This document shows, piece after piece, positions 4,700 to 22,625 of a stretch of 27,715 bases of DNA (positions are counted from its first letter, which is position 1; each line of letters opens with the position of its first letter). A program made the translations under genes and the position numbers. The stretch lies in IMG/VR virus record IMGVR_UViG_3300007735_000565, positions 1 through 27,715 of that record; one strand, 5' to 3'. The stretch comes from a virus. The notes beneath the pieces were generated by a model. That model saw only the letters and a list, made by a program, of their open reading frames with translations, was not told where the DNA came from and did no database searches.

Positions 4700-4706
4700 A
4701 TCATAC

Positions 4707-4714
4707 TATATATA
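4707..4714 (-). promoter_or_regulatory. Late-promoter-like octamer (TATATATA)
   Basis: Minus-strand TATATATA differs from the T4 late consensus at one base and lies seven bases before the ATG at 4699. By T4 geometry the leader would be two bases. It forms a divergent pair with the motif at 4729-4736 inside a 41-bp gap. Confidence 0.45.
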
Positions 4715-4728
4715 AACTAAATTCGGTA

Positions 4729-4736
4729 TATACATA
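4729..4736 (+). promoter_or_regulatory. Late-promoter-like octamer (TATACATA)
   Basis: TATACATA differs from the T4 late octamer at one base and ends four bases before the ATG at 4741. No Shine-Dalgarno lies between. Spacing is one base shorter than at the three exact plus-strand octamers, so the start point would fall on or beside the first codon. Confidence 0.45.
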
Positions 4737-4740
4737 AAGT

Positions 4741-6642: not shown

Positions 6643-6678
6643 TCTTGATTTAAAAGTGAATATCTTTATAATGAAAAA

Positions 6679-7206
6679 ATGAGTAAACCTAAATATTCAC
6701 GAATGATTCGTAAAGTTCTTCTGCTAAATGCATCAGAGGAAATACTCAACATTGTTGATTGGATCAAGGCTGTTAAGCTTCTAAACAATGGAAAAGCCTT
6801 GAATTACAGCAATGATTTTTATGAGATTAAGACCTCAGAGCAAGTCGTTAAATTGCCTAAGACAATCATCTTAAAAACATTCGTGCGTGTGCCATTTAGA
6901 AGGATTCCTCCCACGCGGAAAAACATATTCCTTCGGGATCAATACACTTGCCAGTATTGCAAGAAAGATCTTGATGATAAGAATGCAACACTTGACCATG
7001 TTGTTCCTAAGTCAAAGGGTGGCGGATCCACATGGGAAAATCTGGTGACATCATGCCACTGCTGCAATTTGAAAAAAGCAAACAAGCCACTCAAAGAATC
7101 GGGTCTTAATCTAGAAAAGAAACCCAAGCCCCCATTTGTAAGTATTCTCGGATTGCGCGAATACATATATCACAATCAAGAATGGAAGAAATTTTTAAGG
7201 AATTGA
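6679..7206 (+). CDS. HNH endonuclease (175 aa)
   Basis: Classic HNH nuclease with a zinc site: CQYC (91-94), the catalytic LDHVVPKSKGG stretch (D106-H107), WENLV (N121) and SCHCCN (125-130). An N-terminal domain of about 80 residues (VLLLNASEE..., VPFRRIPPTRKNIFLRD) is the usual lead-in of the HNH family widespread in bacteria and phages, and the total length is normal for it. It makes metal-dependent cuts in DNA. The start at 6679 has no Shine-Dalgarno; TATAATGA at 6667-6674 resembles a degraded late octamer four bases before the ATG. The zinc-ribbon gene follows after one base. It may be a free-standing homing enzyme or a working phage nuclease. Confidence 0.9.
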   Translation: MSKPKYSRMIRKVLLLNASEEILNIVDWIKAVKLLNNGKALNYSNDFYEIKTSEQVVKLPKTIILKTFVRVPFRRIPPTRKNIFLRDQYTCQYCKKDLDDKNATLDHVVPKSKGGGSTWENLVTSCHCCNLKKANKPLKESGLNLEKKPKPPFVSILGLREYIYHNQEWKKFLRN

Positions 7207-7207
7207 C

Positions 7208-7507
7208 ATGCCAAATTACGGATATGAATGTACTGAATGTGAACATTATTTTGAAGAAGTTCATACAATGGCCGAAAGAGATAAGCCAACTAAAGAAAAA
7301 TGCCCATCATGTGGCAAATCAAAATGTGTTGTAAAGAGTTGGAAAGATGTTACTCCCGGCCTGAGTGCTGATACTACTCTGACCCCAGACAAGGCATCTG
7401 GTGGTAGATGGAGCGAACTCATGAGTCGTATGAAGCAAAATATGCCTGAATATGCAAAGAGAAAATTAGACCGGGCTAGTGATATGCGCGGTACTAGATG
7501 GAAGTAA
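7208..7507 (+). CDS. FmdB-type zinc ribbon protein (99 aa)
   Basis: The N-terminal 45 residues are a typical FmdB-family zinc ribbon: MPNYGYECTEC with C8 and C11, then CPSC with C32 and C35 followed by a basic stretch. The C-terminal half is charged and helical, with Met and Arg, and no other motif. The family is often called a putative regulator, but its role is not proven; in phages it may bind DNA or a transcription component. AAGGA six bases before the ATG serves as Shine-Dalgarno, and the gene begins one base after the HNH stop, so the two are one unit. The stop is followed within seven bases by the late octamer of the next gene. Confidence 0.85.
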   Translation: MPNYGYECTECEHYFEEVHTMAERDKPTKEKCPSCGKSKCVVKSWKDVTPGLSADTTLTPDKASGGRWSELMSRMKQNMPEYAKRKLDRASDMRGTRWK

Positions 7508-7513
7508 TCCATT

Positions 7514-7521
7514 TATAAATA
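7514..7521 (+). promoter_or_regulatory. T4-type late promoter (TATAAATA), five bases before ATG
   Basis: Exact late octamer with the spacer CAAAT and then the ATG at 7527. By T4 geometry (octamer at -13 to -6) the first transcribed base is the A of the ATG. No Shine-Dalgarno is present. Confidence 0.8.
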
Positions 7522-7526
7522 CAAAT

Positions 7527-8528
7527 ATGAAGAAGCTAACTAAACTTTTCGAAGACGCAATCAAAAATAACGAACAGGAACTTCAAGAGATTCTTTCGGA
7601 GGTCGAGCAGGCTTCTGGTAAGATGTCTCTTGAAGAGAAGTTTCGCTTTATTGAATTATTTGAAGAAGATAATTATGGAAAACCGAAAGACAAAAGAAAA
7701 GAAGAAGTTATCAAAAGAGGCAAATACCGAGTCGAAATCAGGACATCGACAGGGACGAAAATAAGAACCGCTTCTTCACAAAAAGGTCTTCTTGATGTTA
7801 TTCACGGTGCTAAAAACTTTAGAGTCATTGACGAAAGATCAAACAAAGACGTAACTACTCAAATCAAAAAGTTTATTGAGACTAGAAATAAACAAACCAA
7901 GAATTATGATAAGAAGCCAAAGAGTGGCCTCAAAGAAGATTTTAGTGTAAGAGAATTCACTCTTAGAATTGAAAGATCTAAACTTTTAAATGAGGGATTA
8001 GCTGGTGCAATTTCTAAGGCAATCGGACGCGGTGCTTCCGATTTAGATGTCTCACCATATCTAAAAAAAATTGGAGTATCTGATCCAAGCGTAAACATTT
8101 ATGATCCAAGCATGGCTAAAATGGCACCAGAAACAAGAGCAGTGCCAACGTCACCAAGACAAGATTATATTTACGTTGAACCACAACAAACTAAAAAGGC
8201 AGCTTCAGCCCAAACAAGTTCTGCATCAGATTATATCGAACCACAATCAAATGTTAAGCCATTTGCTCTAGGTGCCGCCACTGCATTGGGTGTTGGTGGA
8301 TATCTTATGTCGCAAGATGAGGCTCAAATGACCGGCCAAGCTGAGGCCACTAAAACTGGAACTGAGGCTCCTGCCGAAGAATTTAAAGCATATGAAGAGG
8401 ATTTAGTATCTGCATCAAACCTCATTAGTGGTATAATACAGTCCAAATCAAATGACGGTTCATTTTTAATGCAAACCAAAGACATTGGTCCTATTCGTGA
8501 TGTGACAAGTGTATCCGAAATTATGTAA
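7527..8528 (+). CDS. Late protein of unknown function (333 aa)
   Basis: The start is ATG 7527, set by the late octamer just upstream. Residues 1-55 are acidic helix (MKKLTKLFEDAIKNN at the start); 60-110 form a small basic beta-like domain (KYRVEIRTSTGTKIRTASS); the middle (130-180) is charged; 190-260 is a Pro/Gln/Ala-rich linker with two DYI-(Y)VEPQ-like motifs; a short hydrophobic Gly-rich segment (about 250-266, GAATALGVGGYLM) could insert into a membrane; and the tail is acidic. No family recognised. The N-terminus, with LFE followed by a helix, resembles capsid-targeting peptides cleaved after L-x-E in T4, so an internal head protein is possible. The next gene overlaps by one base (TAATG). 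Confidence 0.7.
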   Translation: MKKLTKLFEDAIKNNEQELQEILSEVEQASGKMSLEEKFRFIELFEEDNYGKPKDKRKEEVIKRGKYRVEIRTSTGTKIRTASSQKGLLDVIHGAKNFRVIDERSNKDVTTQIKKFIETRNKQTKNYDKKPKSGLKEDFSVREFTLRIERSKLLNEGLAGAISKAIGRGASDLDVSPYLKKIGVSDPSVNIYDPSMAKMAPETRAVPTSPRQDYIYVEPQQTKKAASAQTSSASDYIEPQSNVKPFALGAATALGVGGYLMSQDEAQMTGQAEATKTGTEAPAEEFKAYEEDLVSASNLISGIIQSKSNDGSFLMQTKDIGPIRDVTSVSEIM

Positions 8529-9205
8529 TGCTATCTGAATATATCAATACCAAATCATTTAATCATCTTCCTAAACTCCAAGAAGATCAAGTACAACAAA
8601 TCACCGAAGACGGTAGACGAGTCTATGTCTGTCCGGGTGGAAAGTTTCCTAGTGTAACTACAGTCGTAGGCTGGGAAAAGAACGAATTCTTCAAGAAGTG
8701 GCGAAGAGATAATCCAAAAGAATCTCAAAGAGTTTGCCAACGAGGTACTAACCTACACAAACTAATTGAAAATTATTTGCTCAATGAACAGATTGAAAAA
8801 AATTCATTGATGCCAGATCAGTACGAACTTTTCAAGCAAGTACAGGACAAATTAGACACTATAGATAACGTACATGCACTTGAATACCCTCTATGGGGCG
8901 CAAAGGTCGGTCTCGCTGGTCGAGTAGACTGCGTTGCTGACTATAACGGAGTAAAGAGCATTATTGACTTCAAGGGAAGTACGAACAGAAAGCGCGAAGA
9001 AGATATTGAAAACTATAAGCTTCAAGCAACTGCATATGCTCTTCTCTGGGAGGAAAGATTCAATGAAAAGATTGAAAACATTGTCATCCTCATTACATGC
9101 GAAGACGGCTCTGTTCAAGAATTCATCGACAAGCCAATCAAATACGTTGGAAAACTATTTGATGTGATACAGAAATACAAGGAAAAGTTCAATGAGTCTA
9201 AGTGA
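8528..9205 (+). CDS. PD-(D/E)XK exonuclease (225 aa)
   Basis: RecB/MGME1-like nuclease of the PD-(D/E)XK fold. Visible motifs in order: RGTNLHKLIE (H77), E119 in ALEYPLW, GRVDCVADYNG (D134), IIDFKGS (D147, K149) and QATAYA (Q166, Y170). This is the complete catalytic set for metal-dependent single-strand-directed exonucleases. The start overlaps the preceding stop as TAATG, so it is translated from the same late transcript; a nuclease within a late unit could trim DNA ends during recombination or packaging. The length is normal for compact phage members. The next gene overlaps its end by 14 bases. Confidence 0.88.
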   Translation: MLSEYINTKSFNHLPKLQEDQVQQITEDGRRVYVCPGGKFPSVTTVVGWEKNEFFKKWRRDNPKESQRVCQRGTNLHKLIENYLLNEQIEKNSLMPDQYELFKQVQDKLDTIDNVHALEYPLWGAKVGLAGRVDCVADYNGVKSIIDFKGSTNRKREEDIENYKLQATAYALLWEERFNEKIENIVILITCEDGSVQEFIDKPIKYVGKLFDVIQKYKEKFNESK

Positions 9206-9590
9206 AACTGATCAAGTGAATATAAGAAATAGTCGTTTATGGGTCAGAATGAATGAAGATGCCAGATCCGATTACCACAGAAAGACCTTTACAAGAAAGC
9301 ATGGCGGCTGTTTTGTTAAGGTAGATAAGCATTGGAAATGGATTGAAGAATCAAATACTGTTCCGTATGAACTTTCAGAGGAATTTAAAAACTTCAAAAT
9401 GCCAGAACCAGTCATAAAAATTGACAAGAAAAGGTGTTTTATTTACATCAAAGAAGGCAAAGAAGTTGAAATTGAAAACTTGTATCAGTATTGCCAAGAG
9501 AACGACCTAAATCGGTCTGCGATGTATGACTTAGTCATAGGCAAGAGAAAGTCTTATAAAGGCTTCAAGTTCGTCCGAAAAGAGGAATAG
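9192..9590 (+). CDS. Hypothetical protein with IENR1/NUMOD-like DNA-binding C-terminus (132 aa)
   Basis: Residues 1-60 are basic and Trp/His-rich (DYHRKTFTRKHGG) with no family I know. Residues about 92-130 resemble the helix-turn-helix modules (IENR1/NUMOD type) attached to intron-encoded nucleases: a VEIENLYQYCQENDL helix pair followed by IGKRKSYKGFKF. No nuclease active site is present, so it may be a stand-alone DNA-binding protein or a remnant of a homing enzyme. AAGGA eight bases upstream supports ATG 9192, inside the end of the exonuclease gene. The stop lies eight bases before the late octamer of the following gene. Confidence 0.6.
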   Translation: MSLSETDQVNIRNSRLWVRMNEDARSDYHRKTFTRKHGGCFVKVDKHWKWIEESNTVPYELSEEFKNFKMPEPVIKIDKKRCFIYIKEGKEVEIENLYQYCQENDLNRSAMYDLVIGKRKSYKGFKFVRKEE

Positions 9591-9598
9591 ACTGTCGT

Positions 9599-9606
9599 TA
9601 TAAATA
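9599..9606 (+). promoter_or_regulatory. T4-type late promoter (TATAAATA), five bases before ATG
   Basis: Exact late octamer followed by the spacer CTTTG and then the ATG at 9612. The expected transcription start is the A of that codon, and no Shine-Dalgarno is visible. Confidence 0.8.
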
Positions 9607-9611
9607 CTTTG

Positions 9612-12062
9612 ATGAACGACAGTTGGTTCGATTTACCTACCTTTATTAAATTTGCCCGTAGCCAAGGCATGAGCCTTGATGAGGGTACATATCTCCGCAA
9701 TGAAATTCTTCAATCGAGAGTGGAAAGACGAGTAATTTCCGCCAGAAGAAAACGCGAAGCTCTAGAATACAAAAGAAGAAGACGCATTCTTAAGAATAAA
9801 AAGGCCTCGCGGGGAGAGAGAAAACAACTTGCCGCTAGAGAGCGTCGTGATCAAATCGATCTAACAAACGACCGTAAAGAACTTCTAGCCCGACAGGCTC
9901 GGGAAAGAGGTCAGGCTAAAGCATTGGACATAGCATCAAACCAGAGGGTCTATATGGATGAAAGTATCGATGATCAAATTCTTAATCTTTTAAACGAAAT
10001 TTCTAATCAATCAGGAAAAACCCGAAAGAGAAGGGATATGTTCCGTGGATTTGATGATTTTAGAAAAGAATTAAGAATGTCCATGCAGATGTATAAAGAT
10101 GACAAGGACTTTGAGAAGAAGAGAAAACGTGCAGAGCGCGATCTACTTGAGGCTGAGGGAGAGGAAGAAGCTCCAGAAGATCAGCCCCAAGAGGAAGGTG
10201 GCGAGCCACAGCAAGAAGTAAATCCTAATGACCCAATGTTCATTGCCCAGCAGCACATGATGGCTATGAGCATCTTCATGCCATTGCGTTCAAAACTTAA
10301 CTACAAAGATACACTTTCAAAGCTATCTTTAGATAATCTTAAGAACTTTGGAATACTCATTACAGACGAAGATGAAACTGGCCGCAAAATTTCACTTAGC
10401 GAGCAAGTTGTTCGTGCAATGATTGTATTGTCCAGAATAGCATCCGGTGCTTCTGGACAAGAACTCAACTACACTCTCACATTCATGGGAGGTAAATTCT
10501 CAAGATTTACTAAGGAAGCATTCTTGTTAGCCAAGAAGCTTCTGGAAAAGATGAACACTCTAGACGGAACAGTATTGAATCATTTCTATGAGACTGCTGT
10601 TTTCAACATGGACGGAAGTCAGCCAACTGCGAAGTTGTTTACCAGTGATAAGAGAATCAATCCGATTGTAAATCAAAATAAGATTTTCATTGCTCCCAAA
10701 GATGAAAATTATGATGCTCAGAAGATGATGATTTTCAATCTGTTTAGCACCATGGATTTGAGCCAGATGCAGATCACTCCTACATTAGCTCAGGGATTTC
10801 AAACTATTGCATCTCAATTCGGAAAGACACTATTCAACTCCACCCAATACGAAGCCTTGATGAATGATCCAAATATCAATAACAAGGTAAAGAAAAATTT
10901 GACTGAGTTGGTAGCAAAGAAAAAAGTTCTAGATGAAAACGGTATGGTGTTGCCACAAGCTTCTCTTGAAGTATTCAAACAGCAGATGGAACAGCTCATT
11001 CCACTATTCATCCAAGATATAAACAAAAAGAAAAATCCAGTAAATATCGAAGCTAAAAAGGCTTTGATTGGAGCTTACTTATCTGGACAAGATCAGAATC
11101 CAATAGCTAATGCCACACACATTGTTCGTGATAATGGCATCTATGCGATTGACGATGCGCTTCTCACCGAATTGGCTGGGCTTTCTAAGATCAAATTTAA
11201 GAAGTTTAAGAGAAAGCTTTTTGAAGAAGAAATGCCAGAGGTCAATGAAAAGACATTGATGAAATCTTTAGTTTATAAGACAGCAGATGTAATGAAAGAT
11301 CCGGTTAGATTCCTTCTTTCACTTATGCTTGAATCATATGATTTTGAATCGATGCTCTGCTTTAACCCAATGCTAAAGGTTAAAGATCTTAAGAAGTTTG
11401 TTTCAAAGAACAATATCATTAGAGTCAATGGTAAAGAAATTACCATTCCAGTTGTTCGAAGCAGCGAAGAGCAAATTGAGTTTGATTCCCTCGGACACTA
11501 TATGGATGTGGCTGAACAGATTCTTATCAATTCAGATAAACCATTTGCTAAACTACTTGAACAAAAACTCATCAATAGAAAACAATTTATCAATCTCAAG
11601 AAGTCCAAGAAACAGCTTGATCCTGAAACTCTAGTTGCTTTGGCTCTGGCATACACTTACAACAATGCCCCAGAATCAATCACGGAAGAAAAGCGTGATC
11701 GTGATTATAAGAAGGAATATCGTGAATACCACGGTAAGCCAGAACAAATCAAGAGAAGAGCAAAGAGAGTTACTGCCAGAAGAAAACTCGCTCGTCAGGG
11801 AAGAGTAAAAAAGGGCGATGGTAAGGATGTCGATCATAAAGACGGCAATCCTATGAATAACTCTGAAAAGAATCTAAGAGTTCAAGATAAATCAACAAAC
11901 AGAAGCAACAACAAGAAATACAAGGGAATGACTTATGAAGAGCATGGTGCTGGAGATGAAGGCACTAAAGAATTGCTTCTTAATTATCTACTAAATACTC
12001 CGGGGCAGGATATTAAAAGGATACTAAATGCAATTGGACATAAACACCTTGATGCCAAATAA
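9612..12062 (+). CDS. Large late protein with C-terminal HNH-type domain (816 aa)
   Basis: The ATG at 9612 is preferred over a TTG three bases earlier because of the late octamer spacing. Residues about 30-110 are an extremely basic helix (RRKREALEYKRRRR), 120-210 mixed and acidic (EEEAPEDQPQEEGG), 215-680 a long helical body with no recognised domain. The C-terminal 130 residues hold a basic RAKRVTARRKLARQG helix and then an HNH-like core, DGKDVDHKDGNPMNN (D and H catalytic-type, Asn pair) and NLRVQDKSTNRSNN. That HNH-like module is common in phage proteins. A nuclease joined to a large late protein suggests action during packaging or a DNA-organising role in the virion; whether it cuts is unknown. 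The following gene starts inside its 3' end. Confidence 0.75.
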   Translation: MNDSWFDLPTFIKFARSQGMSLDEGTYLRNEILQSRVERRVISARRKREALEYKRRRRILKNKKASRGERKQLAARERRDQIDLTNDRKELLARQARERGQAKALDIASNQRVYMDESIDDQILNLLNEISNQSGKTRKRRDMFRGFDDFRKELRMSMQMYKDDKDFEKKRKRAERDLLEAEGEEEAPEDQPQEEGGEPQQEVNPNDPMFIAQQHMMAMSIFMPLRSKLNYKDTLSKLSLDNLKNFGILITDEDETGRKISLSEQVVRAMIVLSRIASGASGQELNYTLTFMGGKFSRFTKEAFLLAKKLLEKMNTLDGTVLNHFYETAVFNMDGSQPTAKLFTSDKRINPIVNQNKIFIAPKDENYDAQKMMIFNLFSTMDLSQMQITPTLAQGFQTIASQFGKTLFNSTQYEALMNDPNINNKVKKNLTELVAKKKVLDENGMVLPQASLEVFKQQMEQLIPLFIQDINKKKNPVNIEAKKALIGAYLSGQDQNPIANATHIVRDNGIYAIDDALLTELAGLSKIKFKKFKRKLFEEEMPEVNEKTLMKSLVYKTADVMKDPVRFLLSLMLESYDFESMLCFNPMLKVKDLKKFVSKNNIIRVNGKEITIPVVRSSEEQIEFDSLGHYMDVAEQILINSDKPFAKLLEQKLINRKQFINLKKSKKQLDPETLVALALAYTYNNAPESITEEKRDRDYKKEYREYHGKPEQIKRRAKRVTARRKLARQGRVKKGDGKDVDHKDGNPMNNSEKNLRVQDKSTNRSNNKKYKGMTYEEHGAGDEGTKELLLNYLLNTPGQDIKRILNAIGHKHLDAK

Positions 12063-12657
12063 TTATCTGGAACTAGGAACGGCACTGGGTGCTACTATTG
12101 CAGGAGCATTGGTATATTTTTTTCGTTGGAAAAAGAAAAGAAAAGAAGCCTATAATATCGAATACTGGAAAACTCACAGCGATATTCACGAAGCTTTAAC
12201 TGAATTAAGACTTGAGTGTGACGCAGCCAGAACACAGCTGGTTCAATTTCATAATGGTGAATATTTCATTGATGGTATTTCAATGAAGAAATTGTCAATG
12301 ACTCACGAATCTCTTCACAGCGGAGTAAGCGCACAATACACCAAGATGAGAGAAGTATTGATTTCCATGTTCATTGAACATGTTCAATCATTAATATCAG
12401 AAAATATTGTTATTAGAAAGCTAGGCCAACTCAAAGCTAGCATATTTCGCCAAATACTTGAAACTGATAATGTCGAAGCCTACATGACTACCACAATCAA
12501 AAATAAAGGTAAGATTACAGGATATATCATGGTTCAATGGTGCAATAGGGTGACATTTGAAACTATAGATATAGAATCCTGCAAAAAGGCACTAGAAAGA
12601 GCTAAGGATTCCATAGAAGTCAGTCTATTACAGCAGAAAGCAACCGATGAAAAATAA
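12028..12657 (+). CDS. Membrane-anchored protein of unknown function (209 aa)
   Basis: One N-terminal transmembrane helix (about 14-32, LELGTALGATIAGALVYFF) followed by a basic stop-transfer stretch (WKKKRKE) and a cytoplasmic domain of about 170 residues. The domain begins with a helix, then VQFHNGEYFIDGISMKKLSMTHES (about 76-99; given here as a description of the FHNG and DGISM-K motifs), and has the alternating pattern of a GAF-like sensor fold, though this is a guess. AAGGA six bases before 12028 decides the start, 35 bases inside the previous gene. The next gene overlaps its end by 11 bases. It could be a late membrane sensor or tail-associated protein. No lysis function is evident. Confidence 0.6.
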   Translation: MQLDINTLMPNNYLELGTALGATIAGALVYFFRWKKKRKEAYNIEYWKTHSDIHEALTELRLECDAARTQLVQFHNGEYFIDGISMKKLSMTHESLHSGVSAQYTKMREVLISMFIEHVQSLISENIVIRKLGQLKASIFRQILETDNVEAYMTTTIKNKGKITGYIMVQWCNRVTFETIDIESCKKALERAKDSIEVSLLQQKATDEK

Positions 12658-14773
12658 ACTCGATGAGGTATATAAAGATTCTGGTTTGGGCAAATGGTTT
12701 CACGACGAATCTGCCAATTCAGAACCCGGCTGGGACAGATATGACTCATCGGGAAAAAGAGTCGGTAAATGCGGAGATGCCAAGGAAGGTGAGGCCTATT
12801 CTGCTTGTTTATCAAAACAAAAAGCAAACAAATTAGGTAAAAAAGGTATTTCGTCGTTTGTCAAAAGAAAAAGAAAAGCTCAGAAAAAGGCTGGATATGA
12901 CGAAAAAGGCGAAGGCGGTAAAGGCCGAAAGCCTGTCTATGTCGAGACCGGGGCAGCAAAGAAAAAGAAGATGAACGAAGAAACAATAATTCCAGACGAA
13001 TTAATGGACATAAATAAAAAGACGAAAGCCAACACACCCGGTCAATCTATGGATATCTCAAAAAGAAACAAAAAATATAAGACTCCTCCCTGTGAAATGG
13101 ACAAGAAGATTGTCGAAATGAAAACTCCAGTCGGAGTCGTAATTCACTCTGTTGGCAAGCTTGCCAGACAGCTGAATGTGGGGGATGTTTATTACAAGAA
13201 TGCAACCACTCCCGTAGAAGTCCAAGAAATATCTTATCACCGGGATGGCACTTTGAAGTTGATTGTTGAATCCATGGGGCTTGATCGCGGCCTTGAAACA
13301 ATCGAAGAATGCTCTGGCGATGAAATGGTTGCCGTCTTCTTTGAATCAGAAAATAAGTACTTCCAAGAAAATAGCTGGGGTTTCCTTGAAGAAGCTGCCG
13401 AACACAAAGGCAAAAAAGTCAAACTAAATAAGCCAATGCGTGGCGATGTCAAGAAGTATAAGGTCTATGTCAAGAACGACAAGGGAAATGTCGTAAAGGT
13501 TGAGTTTGGCGATCCAAACATGGAAATCAAAAGAGATAATCCAGCCAGAAGAAAGAACTTCCGCGCACGCCACAATTGCGATAATCCCGGTCCCATCTGG
13601 AAGGCTAGATACTGGGCTTGTAGATTCTGGAGCAAGAGAAGCGTTTCTTCTCTTCTTTCGGAAGAAGCTCTTTCATATGGAGTTCTTTTGGAAAAGAACT
13701 CTCCAACAGATAAGAAAAAGTGGAGTGCTTGCATTGCTCAAGCTAAACAAAAGTTTGATGTATATCCATGTGTTACAATGGATTCTCTAGCGATTACTAG
13801 AAATGGACCAGAAAGCTACCACAATCTTGTGATTGGAGATGAAATTTTATCATACAATATTCAAAATGATGAACTTGAATGGAAACCAATACTTAATCTA
13901 CATCATTTTGATGATGCTCCTATTGTTGAGATGGGCAAAGCAACCGGATTTAAGATAAAATGTACCCCTAATCACAAATGGGTAGTTAAGAGTGGTTCTG
14001 ACTATCAAAATACTGGTTTGGTGGAAACTAAGGACATCAATAAGCACATGCAACTAGTTTGTTGCTCAGAACTTAACAATTCTTCTGATTTAATTTTAGA
14101 AAATTGGTCAAAGAAAAACTCATGGACAGAAAAAGTTCTTTCTATGTCCAAAGAACAAAGAGAAATATTTTTGGCCAGTGCAATTGTTTATGATGGCCAC
14201 GATCAGGGAATCAGCACAAAGATAGAAAAACGTCATACATTTGGTTTTAGCCAGAAGAACGAAGATCATTTCTACGCTGCTATTCTCGCAGCATCCTTAA
14301 ATGGTTATCATGTTTCTTTCTCTGACAAATATCCAGAAATGAAGGCCGCTACAATCATTAGAAATAAGAAAACACACAATACCCAAAATCTAATAATTGA
14401 AGATGCTGGTACTGAAGAAGTATGGTGTCCCGAGACTGAAAATAATACATGGGTTATGATTCAAAATGGATTTGTAACCATAACAGGAAATTCAGCCTAT
14501 GCCAATGCTTGGGCTGCAAAGTGCTACAAAAAGAAGGGTGGAGGATGGAGAAAGATTTCAGAAGCCGTTGAAGGATGCGGTTGCGATTCATCTCCAGATG
14601 ACACCGAAGCAATGAACGAATATCAATTCAAGATCAATAAAGGCACAAAAATCGAAGAAACTCCCGGTGATATGATTCATCAAATGATAAATACTAAGAA
14701 GGTAAAGGATATGGAACCTCAGAATATGAGGATCAATTATCTGAAGGGAATATTTGAGGAATTCAAGAAATGA
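12647..14773 (+). CDS. Conserved phage protein with DUF5872-like domains, interrupted by an intein (708 aa precursor)
   Basis: Extein parts: residues about 8-95 contain a Cys-poor basic domain (GKWFHDESA..., GWDRYDSSGKRVGKCGD, KKAGYDEKGEGGKGRKP) that resembles DUF5872; 155-270 a beta-rich domain; 275-325 a very basic motif VEFGDPNMEIKRD ... NFRARHNCDNPG ... ARYWACRFW, familiar from T4-like phages of aquatic origin; 360-374 plus the region after the intein form WSACIAQAKQKFDVYP-SAYANAWAAKCYKKKGGG, again DUF5872-like. The intein (residues 375-615) splits the conserved VYPSAYAN stretch; splicing would leave a 467-aa protein. It follows the membrane protein with an 11-base overlap and ends in an ATGA overlap with the next gene. 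Its biochemical role is unknown; late position suggests a virion or assembly protein. Confidence 0.75.
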   Translation: MKNKLDEVYKDSGLGKWFHDESANSEPGWDRYDSSGKRVGKCGDAKEGEAYSACLSKQKANKLGKKGISSFVKRKRKAQKKAGYDEKGEGGKGRKPVYVETGAAKKKKMNEETIIPDELMDINKKTKANTPGQSMDISKRNKKYKTPPCEMDKKIVEMKTPVGVVIHSVGKLARQLNVGDVYYKNATTPVEVQEISYHRDGTLKLIVESMGLDRGLETIEECSGDEMVAVFFESENKYFQENSWGFLEEAAEHKGKKVKLNKPMRGDVKKYKVYVKNDKGNVVKVEFGDPNMEIKRDNPARRKNFRARHNCDNPGPIWKARYWACRFWSKRSVSSLLSEEALSYGVLLEKNSPTDKKKWSACIAQAKQKFDVYPCVTMDSLAITRNGPESYHNLVIGDEILSYNIQNDELEWKPILNLHHFDDAPIVEMGKATGFKIKCTPNHKWVVKSGSDYQNTGLVETKDINKHMQLVCCSELNNSSDLILENWSKKNSWTEKVLSMSKEQREIFLASAIVYDGHDQGISTKIEKRHTFGFSQKNEDHFYAAILAASLNGYHVSFSDKYPEMKAATIIRNKKTHNTQNLIIEDAGTEEVWCPETENNTWVMIQNGFVTITGNSAYANAWAAKCYKKKGGGWRKISEAVEGCGCDSSPDDTEAMNEYQFKINKGTKIEETPGDMIHQMINTKKVKDMEPQNMRINYLKGIFEEFKK
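13769..14491 (+). other. Intein (241 aa) with degenerate LAGLIDADG domain
   Basis: The intein begins at Cys375 (block A: C-V-T-M-D-S-L-A-I-T) and includes block B (KCTPNHKWVV, with the T..H pair), a middle domain with one LAGLIDADG-like motif (LASAIVYDG, residues 509-517, catalytic-type Asp kept), block F (EVWCPETENNTWVMIQNG) and ends VTITGN before Ser616. The last residue is Asn as required; the penultimate residue is Gly, not the usual His, which occurs in several phage inteins. Only one LAGLIDADG motif is seen and the domain is short, so endonuclease activity is doubtful. The insertion site is VYP^SAYAN. Confidence 0.88.
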
Positions 14774-15255
14774 AATTTAAAGATCTAACACAAAAACTTT
14801 TCGAAAACGAAGACTATTTCGCTGGTGGCCTCGGTCAACCCGGCGAACCCACAAGAACCACAAGATCTGCCGTTTCAGATTTTGGAGCCTTTAGAATTGA
14901 AAACGGGGAACAATTTGAAAGAGTAAATGCGTTCCTCAATGCTTTCGGATCAAGAGACTATATTGATCCAAAGGGTGCAATCGCTCTTCTAAGAGCAAAA
15001 TTGAATCTTGTAGGTATTGATTTTAACTTTACCATGCAGACTCCACTAAATGTTGGTGAAAATGTTTTCCCAATTACAAGATATGGTGGAACATTTGGAA
15101 CCTCACCTGAGCATGATCTTCTCAAAGATGGATTCTTAATGACCGATGGTATCAAGGAATTCAATGGTGGCGTGGGTATGGATCTTCATATTAATGTTTC
15201 GAAGAATAAGAGAAAACTTTATGTCCTTGATATCTTCCTCGCACCCAATGCATGA
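14770..15255 (+). CDS. Hypothetical late protein (161 aa)
   Basis: The ATG overlaps the TGA of the intein-containing gene (ATGA), and GAGGA lies nine bases upstream. The first dozen residues (MKFKDLTQKLFE) are a basic/amphipathic peptide ending in L-x-E, then a flexible Gly/Pro/Thr region (18-36), and a beta-rich domain from about 37 to the end that closes in LYVLDIFLAP. The pattern looks like a small folded structural or chaperone-like subunit; I do not recognise it. The N-terminus resembles that of the gene at 7527. The following gene starts inside its last codons. Confidence 0.65.
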   Translation: MKFKDLTQKLFENEDYFAGGLGQPGEPTRTTRSAVSDFGAFRIENGEQFERVNAFLNAFGSRDYIDPKGAIALLRAKLNLVGIDFNFTMQTPLNVGENVFPITRYGGTFGTSPEHDLLKDGFLMTDGIKEFNGGVGMDLHINVSKNKRKLYVLDIFLAPNA

Positions 15256-15631
15256 TGGTGAAGTGCTCAATCAAATAAATTTTGAGCAATACGCTAAAGA
15301 AAAATATAATAACCCATCATGCATCAGCAAAGACGAGTTCTTTGATGATTTGCGAAGAATTAAGTACATTAAAAGATTATTTGGTAAATTCGAATTTGAA
15401 AAAGAACTCAAGATTACCCTCATAAGAAATCACCTTATCATTTTATCAAATGTATTTGGAAAAGAGCCATCCGCCAAGATGCTCTTTTTTAAATTGGATA
15501 AAAAATATCATTCATTCCTTAAAAGTTTTTTAGTAGATCTCGATTTACTCCCAAAATTTATTTCAGAAGTAAATATTCAAACCATTCCAACAGACCCAAG
15601 AATAGACAGGTTGCTTAAAACAAATGAGTAA
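15248..15631 (+). CDS. Conserved T4-type phage protein of unknown function (127 aa)
   Basis: The start was set at ATG 15248, overlapping the preceding stop by 8 bases; longer in-frame extensions would lie wholly within the neighbour. The protein is helical and contains FFDDLRRIKYIKRLFGKFEFE and then a hydrophobic helix LITLI-like stretch (residues about 58-78, LIRNHLIILSNVF), and it ends in a short charged tail. The pattern of a conserved DDLRRIKYIKRLF followed by RNHLIIL... is, from memory, found in many marine T4-like phages without a function. No Shine-Dalgarno is seen, so coupling to the gene before it is likely. It is not an enzyme by any visible motif. Confidence 0.65.
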   Translation: MHDGEVLNQINFEQYAKEKYNNPSCISKDEFFDDLRRIKYIKRLFGKFEFEKELKITLIRNHLIILSNVFGKEPSAKMLFFKLDKKYHSFLKSFLVDLDLLPKFISEVNIQTIPTDPRIDRLLKTNE

Positions 15632-16154
15632 TTATATGTCAGCAAGTGCGTATGTTCGTCCGTTCACGATGTACAAATTCGTGCAGATGATCAATTCAGA
15701 TTACACATCATTAGATCTTTACCGCAAAGGTATCATAGACAACGATGGAAACTTTTTAATACCCCCAGAAGTTGCTATTGATGAAAAAAATGCTGATCCT
15801 CTGGAGGTGATTATAGTAAAGATTAAATATTATTTTGACATGGTCCCCGATCCAAAATTTCAAGCCCAGTATGGGAATTTCTTATCCCTTCTTAATCTAT
15901 TCCTTGCAGAATCAAAAAATTACAATCTAACTAACGATGACGCGATGTATCTTCTTGAGGATACATTTATGAAGAAAAATATTTCCATCAGAGCCTTATT
16001 GAAAGAAGAAGGTGAAGGTGGTGGAGTACCAGCAAACTCAGTTAGTGGGGGTGGTATTCAGGGATTAGGATATCCCCCAGAAACAGATGAAATAGCCGTT
16101 CCTGCTAGAAACAAACTTACTATGCTTCGTAGAAAAAAGCGTAGAAAAGTATAA
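15624..16154 (+). CDS. Conserved late protein of unknown function (176 aa)
   Basis: The ATG at 15624 overlaps the TAA of the previous gene (ATGAGTAA); a second ATG at 15636 is a possible alternative. A folded N-terminal part (residues about 8-125) includes VRPFTMYKFVQMINSDYTS, the IIDNDGNFLIPPE loop and two helices (EVIIVKIKYYFDMVPD, LSLLNLFLAESKNY). A Gly/Ser/Pro linker with GGGVPANSVSGGG (about 131-150) leads to a strongly basic tail (RRKKRRKV), which may touch DNA or the capsid interior. The stop codon TAA is embedded in the late octamer of the next gene. I do not know the family's function. Confidence 0.65.
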   Translation: MSNYMSASAYVRPFTMYKFVQMINSDYTSLDLYRKGIIDNDGNFLIPPEVAIDEKNADPLEVIIVKIKYYFDMVPDPKFQAQYGNFLSLLNLFLAESKNYNLTNDDAMYLLEDTFMKKNISIRALLKEEGEGGGVPANSVSGGGIQGLGYPPETDEIAVPARNKLTMLRRKKRRKV

Positions 16155-16157
16155 ATA
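16150..16157 (+). promoter_or_regulatory. T4-type late promoter (TATAAATA), five bases before ATG
   Basis: Exact late octamer, spacer CTAGT, ATG at 16163. The octamer contains the TAA stop of the preceding gene, so no room is left for a leader. The predicted start of transcription is the A of the ATG; there is no Shine-Dalgarno. Confidence 0.8.
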
Positions 16158-16162
16158 CTAGT

Positions 16163-18919
16163 ATGGATTATAAATCACATCGTTCTTTAATTAACGCTGC
16201 TATACTCACAAAAAGAAGATCCTTGCTTACAGAGCAAGAAGCTATGCTAACTGGTTCTGGTGGTAGGCCAAATCCATTGCTTGATCCCAGAGCAGCACAA
16301 CAGACTCAAGAACGAAGTGTGCAACTAGAAAAGGCAAGAAAAGATATTCTTGCCGCGAAAGAACAGGCTGAAATTGAAGAAGATCTCCTCAACATGTATG
16401 CTGATGAGGGAAGAGCTAAACGTGCATATGCGATTGGATTGGGTACTCCTTATGATGGCGCACCACCCCTTCCCGGAGAACTAACTCGCGGCGAAGAGCT
16501 ATTAATCAATAATTTGAGAACACAAGTGGCTGCGGCTGAAGACACTGGTCGAAAGGACATGTATATTGAAAAAGAAATGGCTCAATTAACTCCTTTAGTC
16601 TTGGCTTCAAAACTTGAATTTGATAAAAGATCAAGAGCAAAGACTCCACCAAAAGCAAGTGCGGCTAAAGCTCAACTAAAAGCTGGTGAAAGTATTGAAC
16701 AAATCGCAGGAGAAAATTTAAAATTTACAGATCCAGATAATTATATGCGTCAGGCAGCAGCAATAAATCCTGACTTGCTAGATGATTCATTTTTAGATGA
16801 TGTATTAGCATCCTTACCAGATACAGGCAAAGATAAACAATTAAAAACTGAAGTTGCAAAATATAAGGATCAATTAAAGGCTCGCAGATCAGCAAATAGA
16901 GAATATCAACTTGATCAATTGATTAGTGGCATTATAGAACCCCGCGATGAAGGTAGAATATCTGATCGATATAAAACTTCTCAGGGTGATATTCAACAGC
17001 CAAAAGCTATTTCAGTAGATCGATATATCAACGCCGATTCTATGAAAAAGGACTTTAGGGTTGAAGCTGGAATAGATCCGATTCCCGGTGGTAAAAGGGC
17101 TAAAGCACCCGCATCGGGATCTATGTACGAAAGATATAGACAATTAGAAGATCAACTTAAACAGGCTGGATTCGTTGTACAAGATGTAGATGCAGCTGGT
17201 TTAGCTCAGGTTAGACCGGGAACAGCTATCGATCCTAGAATTAGGGCTTTGGCTGACAGTCAATTTAGAGAGATGCAAGAAATTTACAAAGCACATAAAA
17301 AGGCAAAGATAAGACAAGTACTTGAGCCAATTTTTGATGCTGCATATGGTGATGTCACTCAACTTGCACGGCAATTTGGAAATCCAAAATTATTAGATCC
17401 AGATATTGCTAGACAAGGCAGACCCGCTCTAATGGGTGATCCAGCAGAAGCAGCTGCTGATGTTGTAAGAAGAAAAATGATTGATCAGTTGCAATTCAAT
17501 GAAACTGGATCATCACCACTTTTGAAAACTTTTGCTGATTTAGATACTACTTATAAATCAACCGATCCTGCTGTCATCAGAGAGAGACAAAAAGAAGCAT
17601 TAGGAATTCTAGATGAAAAAGAATATTTTAATGCAGAATTTGAATATGATCCTGCCAAGAATGAATATAAAGTCAAAAGAGTAAGGGGATCGACTGAGCT
17701 TACTCCACTTCAGCAAGTAAGACAACTTTCTCAAATTGGATCGGGTTATGAATTTGATGTTGCTCAAAATAAATGGAGGGTAAGACCAGCCACAATTACA
17801 ACTCTTGAGACAAGTGCTGCACAAGGTACTTTAACAAGAGCATTATCAGTTGAAGAAATGATTGATTCTGGGGTTTTAAGATTTGACAGATCTGCTGGTA
17901 GATTTGCCTTTGCTGATTCTGCAAGACCTCTTTCTCCATTGGGCAAAGAAATGAAATTAGATGCTCCAGCAGCAACCCCAGAACACGCTGAATTGTTAGC
18001 TAGAGCAAGAGAGTTGTATGGAGAAGCACCTGAAATAACTTCTGCATATAAAAGAGATGCAAAACTCTTAAAAGTTGGTAAAGGTGTATTTGACGTTGCT
18101 AAGATTGTAGGTGCAAATCTAGGATCAGATTACGCTATGGAGAAAGTGGGGGAATGGTCCATATTTGGATTCGATCCAAATAGCCCAAACCAAGCTGTTA
18201 GAGATGTAGCTCAAAGTGCTACTTCATATGGAACTGCTGGTACTTTAGCAAGTATGATGGAGCGTGGAGGTACATTTAAAGGTAATATATTAAGAGGCGG
18301 GTTGCCTAGCGCGGCTCAGGGATTGGCAATAGATTTTATTTCTAAAGGACTTGGTACTGACACATCAGCTACAACCAATTTAGTCGGTGCTGGAGTTGGT
18401 ATGGCAGCAACTCCATTTTCTATTAGAGCATCGCAGCAACTAGCTAGAATGCCGGGGTTATATCCTAAAATGGCAGCAGCAGCATTAGCAATTCCAACAG
18501 CTGCTGAAGCTGGCGTACATCTCATAGGATCTATGTTCCAACCTCCAAAAATGCAAGGTAGTTTGAAAGAATTCTACGAATCAGCTAAAAATCTTTCAAA
18601 AGAACAGCAAGATCGATTGAGAGCTGATACAGAAAGATTACTAAAACAACCAAAAATGCCAGCTCAAGTAAGACCATCAGGTGATTTAACTTCATACCAG
18701 AAACAGTTTTACGATGAATTAGAAGAAGCTGGTCTTTTAGGTAGAGAACTAACATCAGAAACTGACATACAAAAATCAGCCATAATTGCTGGTAGAGCGA
18801 GATTAGCATACTTAGAAGCTATGCAGAAAGCAGCTAGAGAACAATTAGAGAAAGCTCAGATAAAGCCTTCATCACCAGTCGTTCCACCTTCACCGATTAA
18901 CCCACCAACGGTTAGGTAA
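16163..18919 (+). CDS. Very large late protein (918 aa), probable virion or injected protein
   Basis: Mostly helical and charged, built from Ala/Gln/Lys/Glu-rich segments, with long regions (about 30-180 and 190-300) that look like extended helices. From about 640 to 810 the composition changes to Gly/Ala/Ser with several weakly hydrophobic stretches (for example LVGAGVGMAATPF, MAAAALAIPTAAEAGVHLIGSMF), typical of proteins that insert into or cross a membrane. The C-terminus is a Pro-rich tail. No catalytic motif is visible. Size, late promoter and glycine-rich segment would fit an ejected protein that helps DNA cross the envelope, or a tape-measure-like part, but this is inference. Its stop converges on the RuvC-like gene with an 8-base overlap and no terminator between. 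Confidence 0.7.
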   Translation: MDYKSHRSLINAAILTKRRSLLTEQEAMLTGSGGRPNPLLDPRAAQQTQERSVQLEKARKDILAAKEQAEIEEDLLNMYADEGRAKRAYAIGLGTPYDGAPPLPGELTRGEELLINNLRTQVAAAEDTGRKDMYIEKEMAQLTPLVLASKLEFDKRSRAKTPPKASAAKAQLKAGESIEQIAGENLKFTDPDNYMRQAAAINPDLLDDSFLDDVLASLPDTGKDKQLKTEVAKYKDQLKARRSANREYQLDQLISGIIEPRDEGRISDRYKTSQGDIQQPKAISVDRYINADSMKKDFRVEAGIDPIPGGKRAKAPASGSMYERYRQLEDQLKQAGFVVQDVDAAGLAQVRPGTAIDPRIRALADSQFREMQEIYKAHKKAKIRQVLEPIFDAAYGDVTQLARQFGNPKLLDPDIARQGRPALMGDPAEAAADVVRRKMIDQLQFNETGSSPLLKTFADLDTTYKSTDPAVIRERQKEALGILDEKEYFNAEFEYDPAKNEYKVKRVRGSTELTPLQQVRQLSQIGSGYEFDVAQNKWRVRPATITTLETSAAQGTLTRALSVEEMIDSGVLRFDRSAGRFAFADSARPLSPLGKEMKLDAPAATPEHAELLARARELYGEAPEITSAYKRDAKLLKVGKGVFDVAKIVGANLGSDYAMEKVGEWSIFGFDPNSPNQAVRDVAQSATSYGTAGTLASMMERGGTFKGNILRGGLPSAAQGLAIDFISKGLGTDTSATTNLVGAGVGMAATPFSIRASQQLARMPGLYPKMAAAALAIPTAAEAGVHLIGSMFQPPKMQGSLKEFYESAKNLSKEQQDRLRADTERLLKQPKMPAQVRPSGDLTSYQKQFYDELEEAGLLGRELTSETDIQKSAIIAGRARLAYLEAMQKAAREQLEKAQIKPSSPVVPPSPINPPTVR

Positions 18920-19472
18920 TCATACTTTTATATAAGTGCTTACAGATATAATACGAATCGACCACATCACTAACCGGATTGGTCGATTCGTCTTTTCCGG
19001 GAGTAATGATTCCTTTGATATCAGCAGCCGTTTCCATTAAAAAGAACTTGTACATGTTATTCTTATCTGAGTTACCTTTACCTGTTGCGAACTTCTTAAC
19101 AACGGTAGGCTGTACAACTTCGATTGGAATGGCTTTTTGATACAGTTTATATTTCAATATACCAGTATTTTCTGCTATATGAAATACTCTTCCTTTAGCA
19201 TTATAAGCATAATCTTCAATTGCAACCATATCACATCCAATTAACAAATCAACCGCCCAATCTGAAATGCTATCGTACCTCTGGCAACTGCTATCGTATT
19301 TTGGAAAAAGCTCGCCGCGAATGTTATTATAAAATACATCAGCGTATTTTTTGATGTCTGTCAAAAAGAAAAACATGCAATCTTCAAATTTAAATACCTT
19401 CTTTTTATTGAAGTCATTATAGATGCAAATGCACGGACACGTTAAAGAATAATCAATTCCGGCTACAATCAT
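18912..19472 (-). CDS. RuvC-like Holliday junction resolvase (186 aa)
   Basis: RNase H-fold nuclease of the RuvC type. Acidic motifs in order: GIDYSLTCP (D7), VAIEDYAYNAKG (E at about residue 82), and a C-terminal SDVVDSYYICKH (Asp in a helix). The K-rich helix in the middle (VVQPTVVKKFATGKGNSDK) is the typical DNA-contacting segment of phage RuvC-like enzymes. It would cut four-way or branched DNA before packaging, a role T4 gives to endonuclease VII. The gene lies just beyond the nrdJ terminator, so it needs its own promoter; a weak late-like CCTAAATA four bases before the ATG is the only candidate, and no Shine-Dalgarno is seen. It overlaps the convergent 918-aa gene by 8 bases. Confidence 0.85.
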   Translation of the reverse strand: MIVAGIDYSLTCPCICIYNDFNKKKVFKFEDCMFFFLTDIKKYADVFYNNIRGELFPKYDSSCQRYDSISDWAVDLLIGCDMVAIEDYAYNAKGRVFHIAENTGILKYKLYQKAIPIEVVQPTVVKKFATGKGNSDKNNMYKFFLMETAADIKGIITPGKDESTNPVSDVVDSYYICKHLYKSMIT

Positions 19473-19485
19473 ATACTATTTAGGC

Positions 19486-19521
19486 AAAAAAGCGACCCTA
19501 TCGTTTTACCGATAGGGTCGC
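19486..19521 (-). terminator. Intrinsic terminator after nrdJ
   Basis: A perfect 12-bp stem (19492-19503 with 19510-19521, GCGACCCTATCG) and a six-base loop are followed on the minus strand by six T residues (complement of 19486-19491). This is a textbook rho-independent terminator, placed 24 bases after the nrdJ stop at 19546, ending the long replication transcript before the RuvC-like gene. Confidence 0.95.
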
Positions 19522-19545
19522 CAGTGCGTAATATTAAATTGTAAT

Positions 19546-20223
19546 TTATTTAGTCAAATCTACTAGCTCACATGAGCCAGCAGTGCAACTGAATGTTTGT
19601 GTGCCAGTGGTGTTGTCTTCCTTTTCATACTTAGACAGTTCTGACCAATCCACTGTTGATGGAATCTTATTCAAAAGTGCCTCGTATTGCTCTCTAGTGC
19701 AATCTTCATAGGGAGCCTGACGATAAGTATGATCTGAGTGCGGAAGGAACGAAATACCGCTGATCTCATCGAAGTGAGAATATACCCACGCCCCGACTTC
19801 CATCCACTCCTCATCACGAACAGTGATGGTAACGCTTGGCTTATGTTCGCACCAGTACTGTTGATATGTTAGCCAGAGTTGCAACTGCTCAAGAGCGGTC
19901 ATGTCATTACGAGTAATGCAATGTTCAGGAGACTTCATGGGGAATGAGAAGACCATAGTATGGTTTGGCTTCATTACGCATGGCTCGGCAGGGAATCCCT
20001 TGTCAATCATAAACTGGCAGATTGGGTCCTTACGGTCAGCGCGAACACGACGAATGTAATAACTAGCGTGACGAGCATGAATACCCGAAGCAGCATCCAC
20101 AAGTTGCGAAACTGTATTGTGAGAAATCCATCCGTTGGATAGTTGATATGAGTGAGTACCCTCTACCTCTATATCGACCATAAATTCGGGTGAAAGTTTT
20201 TTAATTGATTTTATTTTTACCAT
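19546..20223 (-). CDS. nrdJ: Ribonucleotide reductase NrdJ, C-terminal half with split-intein C-fragment
   Basis: The first 36 residues are a split-intein C-fragment: MVKIKSIKKLSPEFMVDIEV... (block F) ending GWISHN before Thr37. The remaining 189 residues are the C-terminal part of a class II (adenosylcobalamin-dependent) ribonucleotide reductase, beginning TVSQLVDAASGIHARHA and ending with the redox pair FSCTAGSCELVD (C-x4-C), which re-reduces the active site. It needs trans-splicing with the N-half (20808-22571) to be active. The start at 20223 is supported by AAAGGTG upstream. It begins inside the end of the HNH gene (23-base overlap) and is followed by a strong terminator. Out of frame with the N-half, so it cannot be read as one protein. 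Confidence 0.93.
   Translation of the reverse strand: MVKIKSIKKLSPEFMVDIEVEGTHSYQLSNGWISHNTVSQLVDAASGIHARHASYYIRRVRADRKDPICQFMIDKGFPAEPCVMKPNHTMVFSFPMKSPEHCITRNDMTALEQLQLWLTYQQYWCEHKPSVTITVRDEEWMEVGAWVYSHFDEISGISFLPHSDHTYRQAPYEDCTREQYEALLNKIPSTVDWSELSKYEKEDNTTGTQTFSCTAGSCELVDLTK
20116..20223 (-). other. Split intein C-fragment (36 aa)
   Basis: Residues 1-36 of the nrdJ C-half gene: a short block F strand pair followed by the block G end S-H-N, with Asn36 as cleavage residue, His35 as penultimate residue and Thr37 as the +1 nucleophile. This is the normal size of natural IntC pieces. Confidence 0.9.
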
Positions 20224-20839
20224 GTTTACACCTTTCGTTATGAAATCTTCCGATTGCTCTTGCGTTTAATTGTTTTCCACACACAGAACAGATGAGTTTA
20301 GGTTCTGTTCTTCCTATTCTATAGTCTTTATTTTCTTCAATGAACTGTTTTATGCTTTTTAATTGTTGTTGTTTTTTTGTATATTTAATATTATCAATAC
20401 CATTAGTCAACCAAACAAAACCTTTATTTTTGATTCCACCCCGTTTTCCAAATTCAGATTGCCATTTCGATTGAGTAAATGCTCCTCGTTTACCACCCTT
20501 GGACGCTAATATCAATCTTTCTTCTTTTGTTTGAGAGTGAATTCCAATTTTATTTTTTATTTGCGTTTCTGCGCCTTTTTTACCACCCAATCTACATTTT
20601 TCTAGTTTTAGTTGAGAAGATGATATTCCAATTTTACTAGCCATCAAATCTCTAACATTACCATTTTTTAAATATCTTTCATGGTGTATTTTTTTATGAT
20701 CTTCAAATGAAAGTGCTATTAGATTTGAAATATCATTTGATCCTCCCTCGTAAAGAGGAATTATGTGATGTATTTCATATCCTTTTGGTATTGGTCCTTT
20801 ATTTTCCTTATAATAACGTCTTATTTTCTTTCGATTCAT
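20201..20839 (-). CDS. Free-standing HNH homing endonuclease inside the nrdJ split (212 aa)
   Basis: HNH nuclease: the core is GYEIHHIIPLYEGGSND (H24, H25), N39 in ISNLIALS and H48/H52 in EDHKKIHHERY. It is followed by repeated Gly/Lys motifs (GGKKGAETQ, GGKRGAFTQ, GKRGGIKN) of the NUMOD3-like DNA-binding kind, a GFVWLTNGIDN segment common in phage HNH proteins, and a C-terminal Cys/His cluster (CSVCGKQLN, FHNERC). The start at 20839 has GAGGA five bases upstream. It overlaps the N-half stop by 32 bases and the C-half start by 23, so it is out of frame with both. It probably cuts intein-less nrdJ copies to spread the split intein. Confidence 0.9.
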   Translation of the reverse strand: MNRKKIRRYYKENKGPIPKGYEIHHIIPLYEGGSNDISNLIALSFEDHKKIHHERYLKNGNVRDLMASKIGISSSQLKLEKCRLGGKKGAETQIKNKIGIHSQTKEERLILASKGGKRGAFTQSKWQSEFGKRGGIKNKGFVWLTNGIDNIKYTKKQQQLKSIKQFIEENKDYRIGRTEPKLICSVCGKQLNARAIGRFHNERCKHGKNKIN

Positions 20840-22571: not shown

Positions 22572-22625
22572 ATGAAAATCCTTAAAGTTGTGGCATTCTA
22601 GCCGTGTTGGGTATTTAGTCAATAT

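Follow-up and report, generated by a model that had tools for sequence, protein, structure and literature searches.

Late promoters of the T4 type set close against the start codon in marine T4-like phages outside the cyanophage clade, with predicted leaderless late messages

This analysis concerns the T4-type late promoter octamer TATAAATA in the DNA of a marine phage (IMG/VR record IMGVR_UViG_3300007735_000565, a complete record of 27,715 bases, called the window hereafter), in which three exact copies each stand five bases upstream of the ATG of a large gene. Our main result is that this five-base spacing is neither due to chance nor local to the window, and that the trait is wider than the window's phage and common to the pelagimyophages. 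The sequence evidence for the position of the promoter is very strong, and the start of the mRNA and the mode of its translation follow as predictions. Very likely, some of the late genes are transcribed from gp55-type late promoters into mRNAs with no leader or almost none, and in many genes of the branch of marine T4-like phages that lies outside the cyanophages the message probably begins at the start codon, with no leader on which a ribosome could dock.

Two close relatives of the window's phage anchor the comparison. G001 (IMGVR_UViG_3300011113_000396; 113,452 bases) matches the window at 97.4% over 24.3 kb, and G002 is a contig of 25,082 bases, with 83% protein identity at the gene of 816 amino acids (aa). 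The three sites and the genes behind them are as follows:

7514-7521, plus strand: late promoter octamer TATAAATA, spacer 7522-7526 (5 bases), ATG at 7527; kept in G001 and G002
7527-8528, plus strand: 333-aa gene with a predicted leaderless start; no named function from searches; G002 homologue 52.7% identical
9599-9606, plus strand: late promoter octamer TATAAATA, spacer 9607-9611 (5 bases), ATG at 9612; kept in G001 and G002
9612-12062, plus strand: 816-aa gene with a predicted leaderless start; no named function; weak HNH-like C-terminal part
16150-16157, plus strand: late promoter octamer TATAAATA, spacer 16158-16162 (5 bases), ATG at 16163
16163-18919, plus strand: 918-aa gene with a predicted leaderless start; no named function from searches

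The sequence-only reading of this DNA had described the same octamers and spacing, and both were confirmed together with their frames, as was its statement that the three ATGs lack a Shine-Dalgarno (SD) sequence, no SD-like sequence being found at a usable distance upstream of 7527, 9612 or 16163. It had also placed the next in-frame ATGs far inside the genes, which holds (offsets of 32, 19 and 27 codons) with the correction that there are other possible starts, namely an in-frame GTG located 48 bases before the ATG at 7527 and, one codon ahead of 9612, a TTG. The window contains four copies of TATAAATA, three of them at five bases from an ATG (shuffled sequences hold 1.37 copies on average, and four or more in 6 of 100). 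G001 has the same three exact TATAAATA-N5-ATG sites, no fourth, and none of the control pattern. All three sites are found in G002, where neither octamer nor spacing differs but 3 of the 15 spacer bases do, one at the 7514 site and two of five at the 16150 site. The 918-aa protein is poorly conserved in G002 (31% over 297 aa in the first among the alignments listed), so that the octamer, its spacing and the start are kept where most of the protein is not. The G002 copy of the 816-aa frame meets a stop after 76 codons, and homology resumes in a different frame. No match to named phages was obtained for the three genes with tblastn at E 1e-5, nor to PDB sequences for the window proteins of 918, 816 and 633 aa at E 0.1, and the three are presumptive late genes, so called from the promoter alone.

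A census of whole genomes was based on d, the number of bases from ATAAATA to an ATG located in the first quarter of a called open reading frame (ORF), the control being the mean over 20 other permutations of the ATAAATA letters. Spacings of 4-5 were counted 9 times in G001 (control 0.30), 3 in G002 (0.10), 8 in Pelagibacter phage HTVC008M (0.25) and 3 in Methylophilales phage Melnitz (0.10); P-SSM2 has one (0.35), and T4, S-PM2, Syn9, RB49, phiM12 and KVP40 have none. With only the nearest start counted, the figures are 8 for G001, 6 for contig G031 (0.35), 5 for G042 (0.15) and 0 for G032 (0.10). Melnitz and G042 are mixed, the majority of their boxes lying at d12-39 (18 and 11, respectively) like those of leadered phages. 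A scan of 45 larger contigs for ATAAATA-N4-5-ATG gave matches in 16 of them, with 11 in G031 (control 1), 5 in G042 (0) and 0-3 in each of the others. Motif-free positional k-mers lead to the same box, the top one being ATAAAT for G001 (position -12) and TAAATA for HTVC008M (-11); in T4, SD words come first (GGAGA at -10). An SD-like 4-mer precedes 3 of 37 starts at d4-5 (short sites), as against 371 of 729 other genes in the six genomes compared, the box itself filling part of the SD zone. In the pooled marine records described below, the start codons at d4-5 are ATG in 39 cases and GTG or TTG in one, a count of little weight, ATG being the usual start in any event. In HTVC008M, annotated starts behind short boxes include those of gp2, gp25 and gp48.

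Pelagibacter phage Mosig was taken as a test genome after the spacing rule had been fixed. It contains nine ATAAATA-N4-5-ATG matches against none for the controls and, by the ORF rule, 6 boxes at d5 (control 0.65) and 18 at d12-39 (6.0). Seven of the eight sites in the annotated stretches examined coincide with annotated starts of coding sequences (CDS), the pattern match at 73459 having no annotated CDS start:

Mosig 60990, 94129, 60328, 92381 and 92996: annotated starts at short boxes, of metabolic or hypothetical genes
Mosig 24964: annotated tail tube gene that sits in the gp3 position (gp3-like)
Mosig 106670: gene for the DNA end protector, gp2

The sequence-only reading, which knew the five-base spacing from three sites, had named a lack of enrichment elsewhere as grounds against itself; the spacing is in fact strongly enriched in this phage, in its relatives and in the test isolate. 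Its phylogenetic range was assessed on a pooled set made up of the best 80 gp4 and the best 80 gp20 loci from longer lists, with clades assigned from a gp20 tree. Over all 160 loci, 15 boxes lie at d5 (control 1.35) and 4 at d4 (1.65), with a hump at 12-39. Among the 38 non-cyanobacterial marine records (1,072 kb) there are 39 boxes at d4-5 (1.85), 32 of them at exactly 5, with 12 at d6-11 (6.5) and 107 at d12-39 (35.6); removal of the five genomes fetched whole leaves 33 partial records with 9 at d5 and none at d4 (0.70). The 44 records of the cyanophage clade (1,066 kb) have 2 at d4-5 (1.45) and 181 at d12-39 (37.4), and T4 and RB49 together have none at d4-5 (0.60) and 43 at d12-39 (12.1).

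The gene content of G001 places the phage. Homologues of T4 gp43, gp41, gp17, gp20, gp21, gp22, gp23, gp55 and gp45, and of gp33 of marine relatives, are encoded there; the core T4-like genes are closest to marine T4-like phages (Kyanoviridae and kin), the helicase gp41 being closest to Melnitz (59.6%) and to marine cyanophages. By its position in the gp20 tree, G001 belongs with the marine T4-like phages and falls outside the clade of the cyanophages. The factors on which T4 late promoters depend are represented at 57730-58386 (gp55), 20052-20279 (gp33) and 61627-62325 (gp45) of this near-identical contig, outside the span of the 27.7-kb window, and match homologues in HTVC008M, Melnitz and P-SSM2.

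The likeness to T4 therefore comprises the octamer (TATAAATA or NATAAATA, its first base being relaxed here), the encoded gp55, gp33 and gp45 homologues and, in many cases, the virion genes downstream. What differs is the distance: in T4 and RB49, boxes close to ORF starts keep 12-37 bases from the ATG (42 in one case), d0-11 being empty, whereas the 4-5 bases found here leave no room for an SD sequence. Passages of a T4 review place the late promoter box from -13 (PMC2988020), in agreement with the interval of -13 to -6 given by the sequence-only reading, and +1 would accordingly be expected at the A of each ATG. At d5 this A is base six after the octamer, a position that is also A in 71% of 56 leadered boxes from Melnitz, G042, Mosig and G032, the highest value of the 12 bases listed. 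A T is found at -1 in 26 of 37 short sites and in 278 of 730 other starts (P 2e-4), which fits the usual preference of transcription initiation for a pyrimidine followed by a purine.

The surroundings of some boxes bear directly on the source of the message. In the window, the relevant features are:

19491-19522, minus strand: intrinsic terminator with a 13-pair stem and a T run, ending beside the octamer at 19484-19477
19477-19484, minus strand: variant octamer CCTAAATA, directly behind the terminator, four bases from ATG 19472 of the RuvC-like gene
18912-19472, minus strand: RuvC-like Holliday junction resolvase gene, downstream of the terminator-promoter-ATG cassette
4729-4736, plus strand: variant octamer TATACATA, four bases from ATG 4741, with a divergent gene at its other side; the G002 counterpart has TATACATA at spacing 5
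4741-6642, plus strand: 633-aa gene behind that octamer; no named function from searches

The G002 RuvC locus reads TCTAAATA-N4 and likewise has such a terminator in front. At the RuvC gene of the window and G001, in G002, at gp3 of G001 and G031, and at HTVC008M 6280, the box is found within 7-9 bases of the end of a hairpin that carries a T run; inspection by eye adds gp3 at loci L177, L190 and L247, for eight loci in all. Divergent starts only 20-41 bases apart form four pairs:

G001 6325/6356: CATAAATA at d5 on both sides, the sole pair in which ATAAATA stands at d5 in both directions
G001 gp4/gp48-like: variant boxes at d4 on both sides
HTVC008M gp2/gp4: the gp4 start is doubtful
window 4699/4741: variant boxes, one of them at d7

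Sites that abut a terminator or face a divergent start leave hardly any room for a leader from any source.

Orthologous genes with and without the short spacing provide a further line of evidence. In a survey of gp2 and gp25 in which TAAATA was deemed enough at d4-5, gp2 has the short spacing in 5 of 73 cases (HTVC008M, Melnitz, G042, L146 and L107), a long one in 4 and no box in 64, and gp25 has it in 5 of 26 (HTVC008M, G042, L152, L108 and L104), with 5 long, 2 at d6 and 14 without a box. For gp3, separated from its tail-tube paralogue gp19 through separate profiles, the corresponding numbers are 7 of 50 at d4-5 (HTVC008M, G031, L177, L190, L225, L234 and L247), 11 at a long d12-27 (RB49, S-PM2, P-SSM2, Melnitz and G032 included) and 32 without a box, among which the G001 gene, with TATACATA-N4, was counted. 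In Melnitz, a box-N5-ATG stands behind a T run upstream of gp3 (129243-129257, or L052:9243-9257), its ATG in another frame than gp3, whose start lies 17 bases downstream; this box may be left over from a change from one state to the other.

A larger gp25 set came from two scans that gave 160 loci. The gene is present in 159, which reduce to 116 non-redundant ones at 85% identity, and starts were fixed by homology. Short spacings number 3 at d4, 24 at d5, 7 at d6, 3 at d7, 8 at d8 and 3 at d9; there are none at d10-15, 48 at d16-34 and 20 loci without a box within 40 bases, the permuted-motif controls being 0.65 at d4-5, 1.6 at d6-11 and 5.45 at d12-40. SD-like words precede 1 of 48 short starts (d4-9) and 32 of 48 long ones, and all 48 short starts are the first ATG of their frame. 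With +1 at the sixth base after the octamer, the predicted gp25 leaders would measure 0-4 nucleotides (nt) or at least 11, with none between. Spacing 8, corresponding to a predicted 3-nt leader, is found in L357, L375, L356, L383, L427, L443, L450 and L426 and also in Mosig gp25. Most loci in the gp20 tree are short, which makes it weak for the history of the trait, and a gp25 tree was used in its place. Over 50 short (d4-9) and 50 long rows this tree implies 10 changes (shuffled mean 33.5, none of 500 as low), and at least 5 switches are forced by well-supported branches, few columns leaving single forks unsure. The gp25 spacing states are strongly clustered on the tree and yet switch several times.

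We propose that in this marine branch the gp55-type box of T4 has often been fixed 4-5 bases upstream of the initiation codon, so that transcripts would begin with the A of the ATG and be leaderless, or would keep 1-4 nt in some orthologues. That the box is the promoter in use, that +1 is this A and that ribosomes start on a 5'-terminal AUG are all steps that we infer. Some of the leaderless late genes would lie behind terminators or at divergent operon heads and others within gene runs, and the remaining late genes, such as HTVC008M gp23, gp18 and gp19, would retain an SD leader. Virion genes stand downstream of many boxes, not all, in G001, G031, G042, HTVC008M and Mosig. Assembly genes with short boxes include those for the end protector (gp2), tail completion (gp3), the baseplate proteins gp25 and gp48, a further baseplate wedge protein, a tape measure and tail fibres, together with the portal in G042 and a sheath-like protein in G001; non-virion genes comprise oxygenases, csgF, a cyclase and RuvC. 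The fourth window copy of TATAAATA is a leadered contrast case:

2487-2494, minus strand: leadered late promoter TATAAATA, with 15 bases including GGAG before the ATG of the gene at 2037-2471

The G002 counterpart also has its ATG 15 bases away, and a further in-frame ATG at 3. SD-like leaders precede five genes of HTVC008M (gp15, gp18, gp19, gp20 and gp23) and two of the window's phage (gp22 and gp23, in G001), which points to a mixed late programme. Leaderlessness as a rule, entertained in the sequence-only reading, does not stand given these SD-led genes and the boxes that leave 1-4 nt. A phage-encoded ribosomal protein S21 (bS21) was considered as a required partner and rejected: it is present in HTVC008M, Melnitz and Mosig, and was not found in G001, G002, G031 and G042, contigs that may be incomplete and that nonetheless have the trait.

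Several observations weigh against the proposal. Only 9 of 41 ATAAATA in G001 are at d4-5, and virion genes account for 2 of the 7 annotated Mosig starts (gp2 and the gp3-like gene). The octamer is absent from the 14 positional k-mers listed for the pools of nearest gp4 (11) and gp20 (14) loci, and the relaxed octamer rule has a background of 3 in T4, 2 in RB49, 1 each in Syn9, S-PM2 and G032, and 6 in P-SSM2. The preference for A at the sixth base is not sharp (54% of 61 boxes in T4, RB49 and KVP40, 54% of 181 in the cyanophage clade), and its neighbours reach 48% in the T4-like and 53% in the cyanophage sets. Short labels cluster only weakly on the gp20 tree (10 changes against a shuffled mean of 12.3, with 16 of 500 shuffles reaching as few), d6-9 in 21 of 116 gp25 loci implies a leader of 1-4 nt, and homology suggests that HTVC008M gp4, whose annotated start is at d5, may begin 14 codons further in. 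Finally, an upstream gene ends 8-21 bases before each of the three window genes, and 44 of 55 relaxed-rule sites in six records (leaving out the window's copies of G001 sites and HTVC008M position 1) follow a gene on the same strand, so that read-through mRNAs could serve many of them.

This last point is the mainstay of a different explanation, in which the boxes are internal promoters, the proteins are mostly translated by termination-reinitiation (70S scanning) on longer mRNAs that read through from the gene upstream, and the short spacing is a by-product of tight packing. The 16150 octamer, which includes the stop codon of the preceding gene (ending at 16154), is in line with it. On the other hand, terminators adjoin the box in eight loci, four divergent pairs have starts 20-41 bases apart, and packing alone yields neither a peak at exactly 5 nor a gap at 10-15; we consider this explanation rather unlikely. 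The A/T-rich octamer, at -13 to -6, lies partly where an SD sequence normally sits and might instead be a translation signal, such as an S1-binding enhancer. Its sequence, however, is the T4 late consensus, in other phages the orthologues have this box at 12-34 bases from the start, an SD word being present in most, the permuted A/T-rich motifs give no signal, and terminators precede the box in those eight loci, all of which makes a purely translational role very improbable. Least credible of all is that boxes fall near ATGs by luck and that starts were picked to fit: the genomes are AT-rich and our own ORF calls are uncurated, but the permuted-motif controls, the independently annotated starts in HTVC008M and Mosig, and the homology-fixed gp25 starts, each short one the first ATG of its frame, speak against it. 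A sigma-70 promoter scan of window positions 4000-20500 was at chance level (44 against 46.6 in shuffles).

Other features of these genomes deserve mention. A tRNA-Lys(TTT) gene lies at 1674-1747 of the window (minus strand). The ribonucleotide reductase at 19546-22622 (minus strand) is split: the part at 20808-22622 terminates in an intein-splicing domain, the start of 19546-20223 resembles by eye the C part of an intein (no Pfam hit) before the reductase continues, and a free-standing HNH endonuclease gene occupies 20201-20839 between the halves. A single reductase frame in G002 matches both. The uvsX/RecA gene of G001 (86347-88377, or L013:6347-8377) is also intein-split, with an opposite-strand HNH gene between its halves.

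Both components of the proposed arrangement have precedents. The late promoters of cyanophages S-PM2 and Syn9, described in passages of PMC2984593 and PMC3037559, have the same box NATAAATA in related phages and differ in being leadered, as the counts for the cyanophage clade attest. Bacterial leaderless mRNAs such as lambda cI have their AUG at or near the 5' end and no SD sequence, as predicted here; passages of PMC9031893 describe 70S initiation at such AUGs, call these mRNAs rare in enterobacteria such as E. coli, and give IF3 as an inhibitor of some of them. In the present case, by contrast, the trait would be set by a phage late promoter, in many genes of one phage, a prediction drawn from sequence. 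Kasugamycin is known to spare leaderless mRNAs. Phage transcripts are said in passing to be often leaderless (in a passage of PMC5312081). For Melnitz, 15 late promoters are listed, without spacing in the passages concerned, and 'leaderless' appears there once, in a reference title (PMC9004378). Among the top-ranked matches listed from open-licence PMC, none was found to report that T4-like phages make leaderless late mRNAs, which leaves their absence from print unproven. The promoter type and the mRNA type are thus known, and their combination, together with the clear split between cyanophages and other marine T4-like phages, appears to be new.

We also advance, tentatively, a broader hypothesis: that marine T4-like phages may have repeatedly switched single late genes between discrete SD-led and leaderless modes through shifts of the replication-coupled late promoter to the start codon, with avoidance of leaders about 5-10 nt long, and that the ratio of the two late mRNA classes might set the dose of assembly proteins against that of bulk capsid, sheath and tube protein, perhaps via 70S initiation. 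The sequence-only reading had likewise conjectured a link of late transcription to 70S-type initiation and an escape from competition for ribosome sites, and the evidence gathered here speaks neither for nor against it. HTVC008M and Mosig, pelagimyophages of the kind treated in PMC7029224, share the short-spacing architecture. Passages of that study state that late-promoter prediction was unsuccessful in pelagimyophage genomes and do not describe the spacing, and the short spacing may bear on that failure. The spacing provides a sequence rule for annotating late promoters and start codons, and gp25, gp2 and gp3 constitute a natural orthologue series, with and without leaders, for leaderless translation in streamlined marine bacteria.

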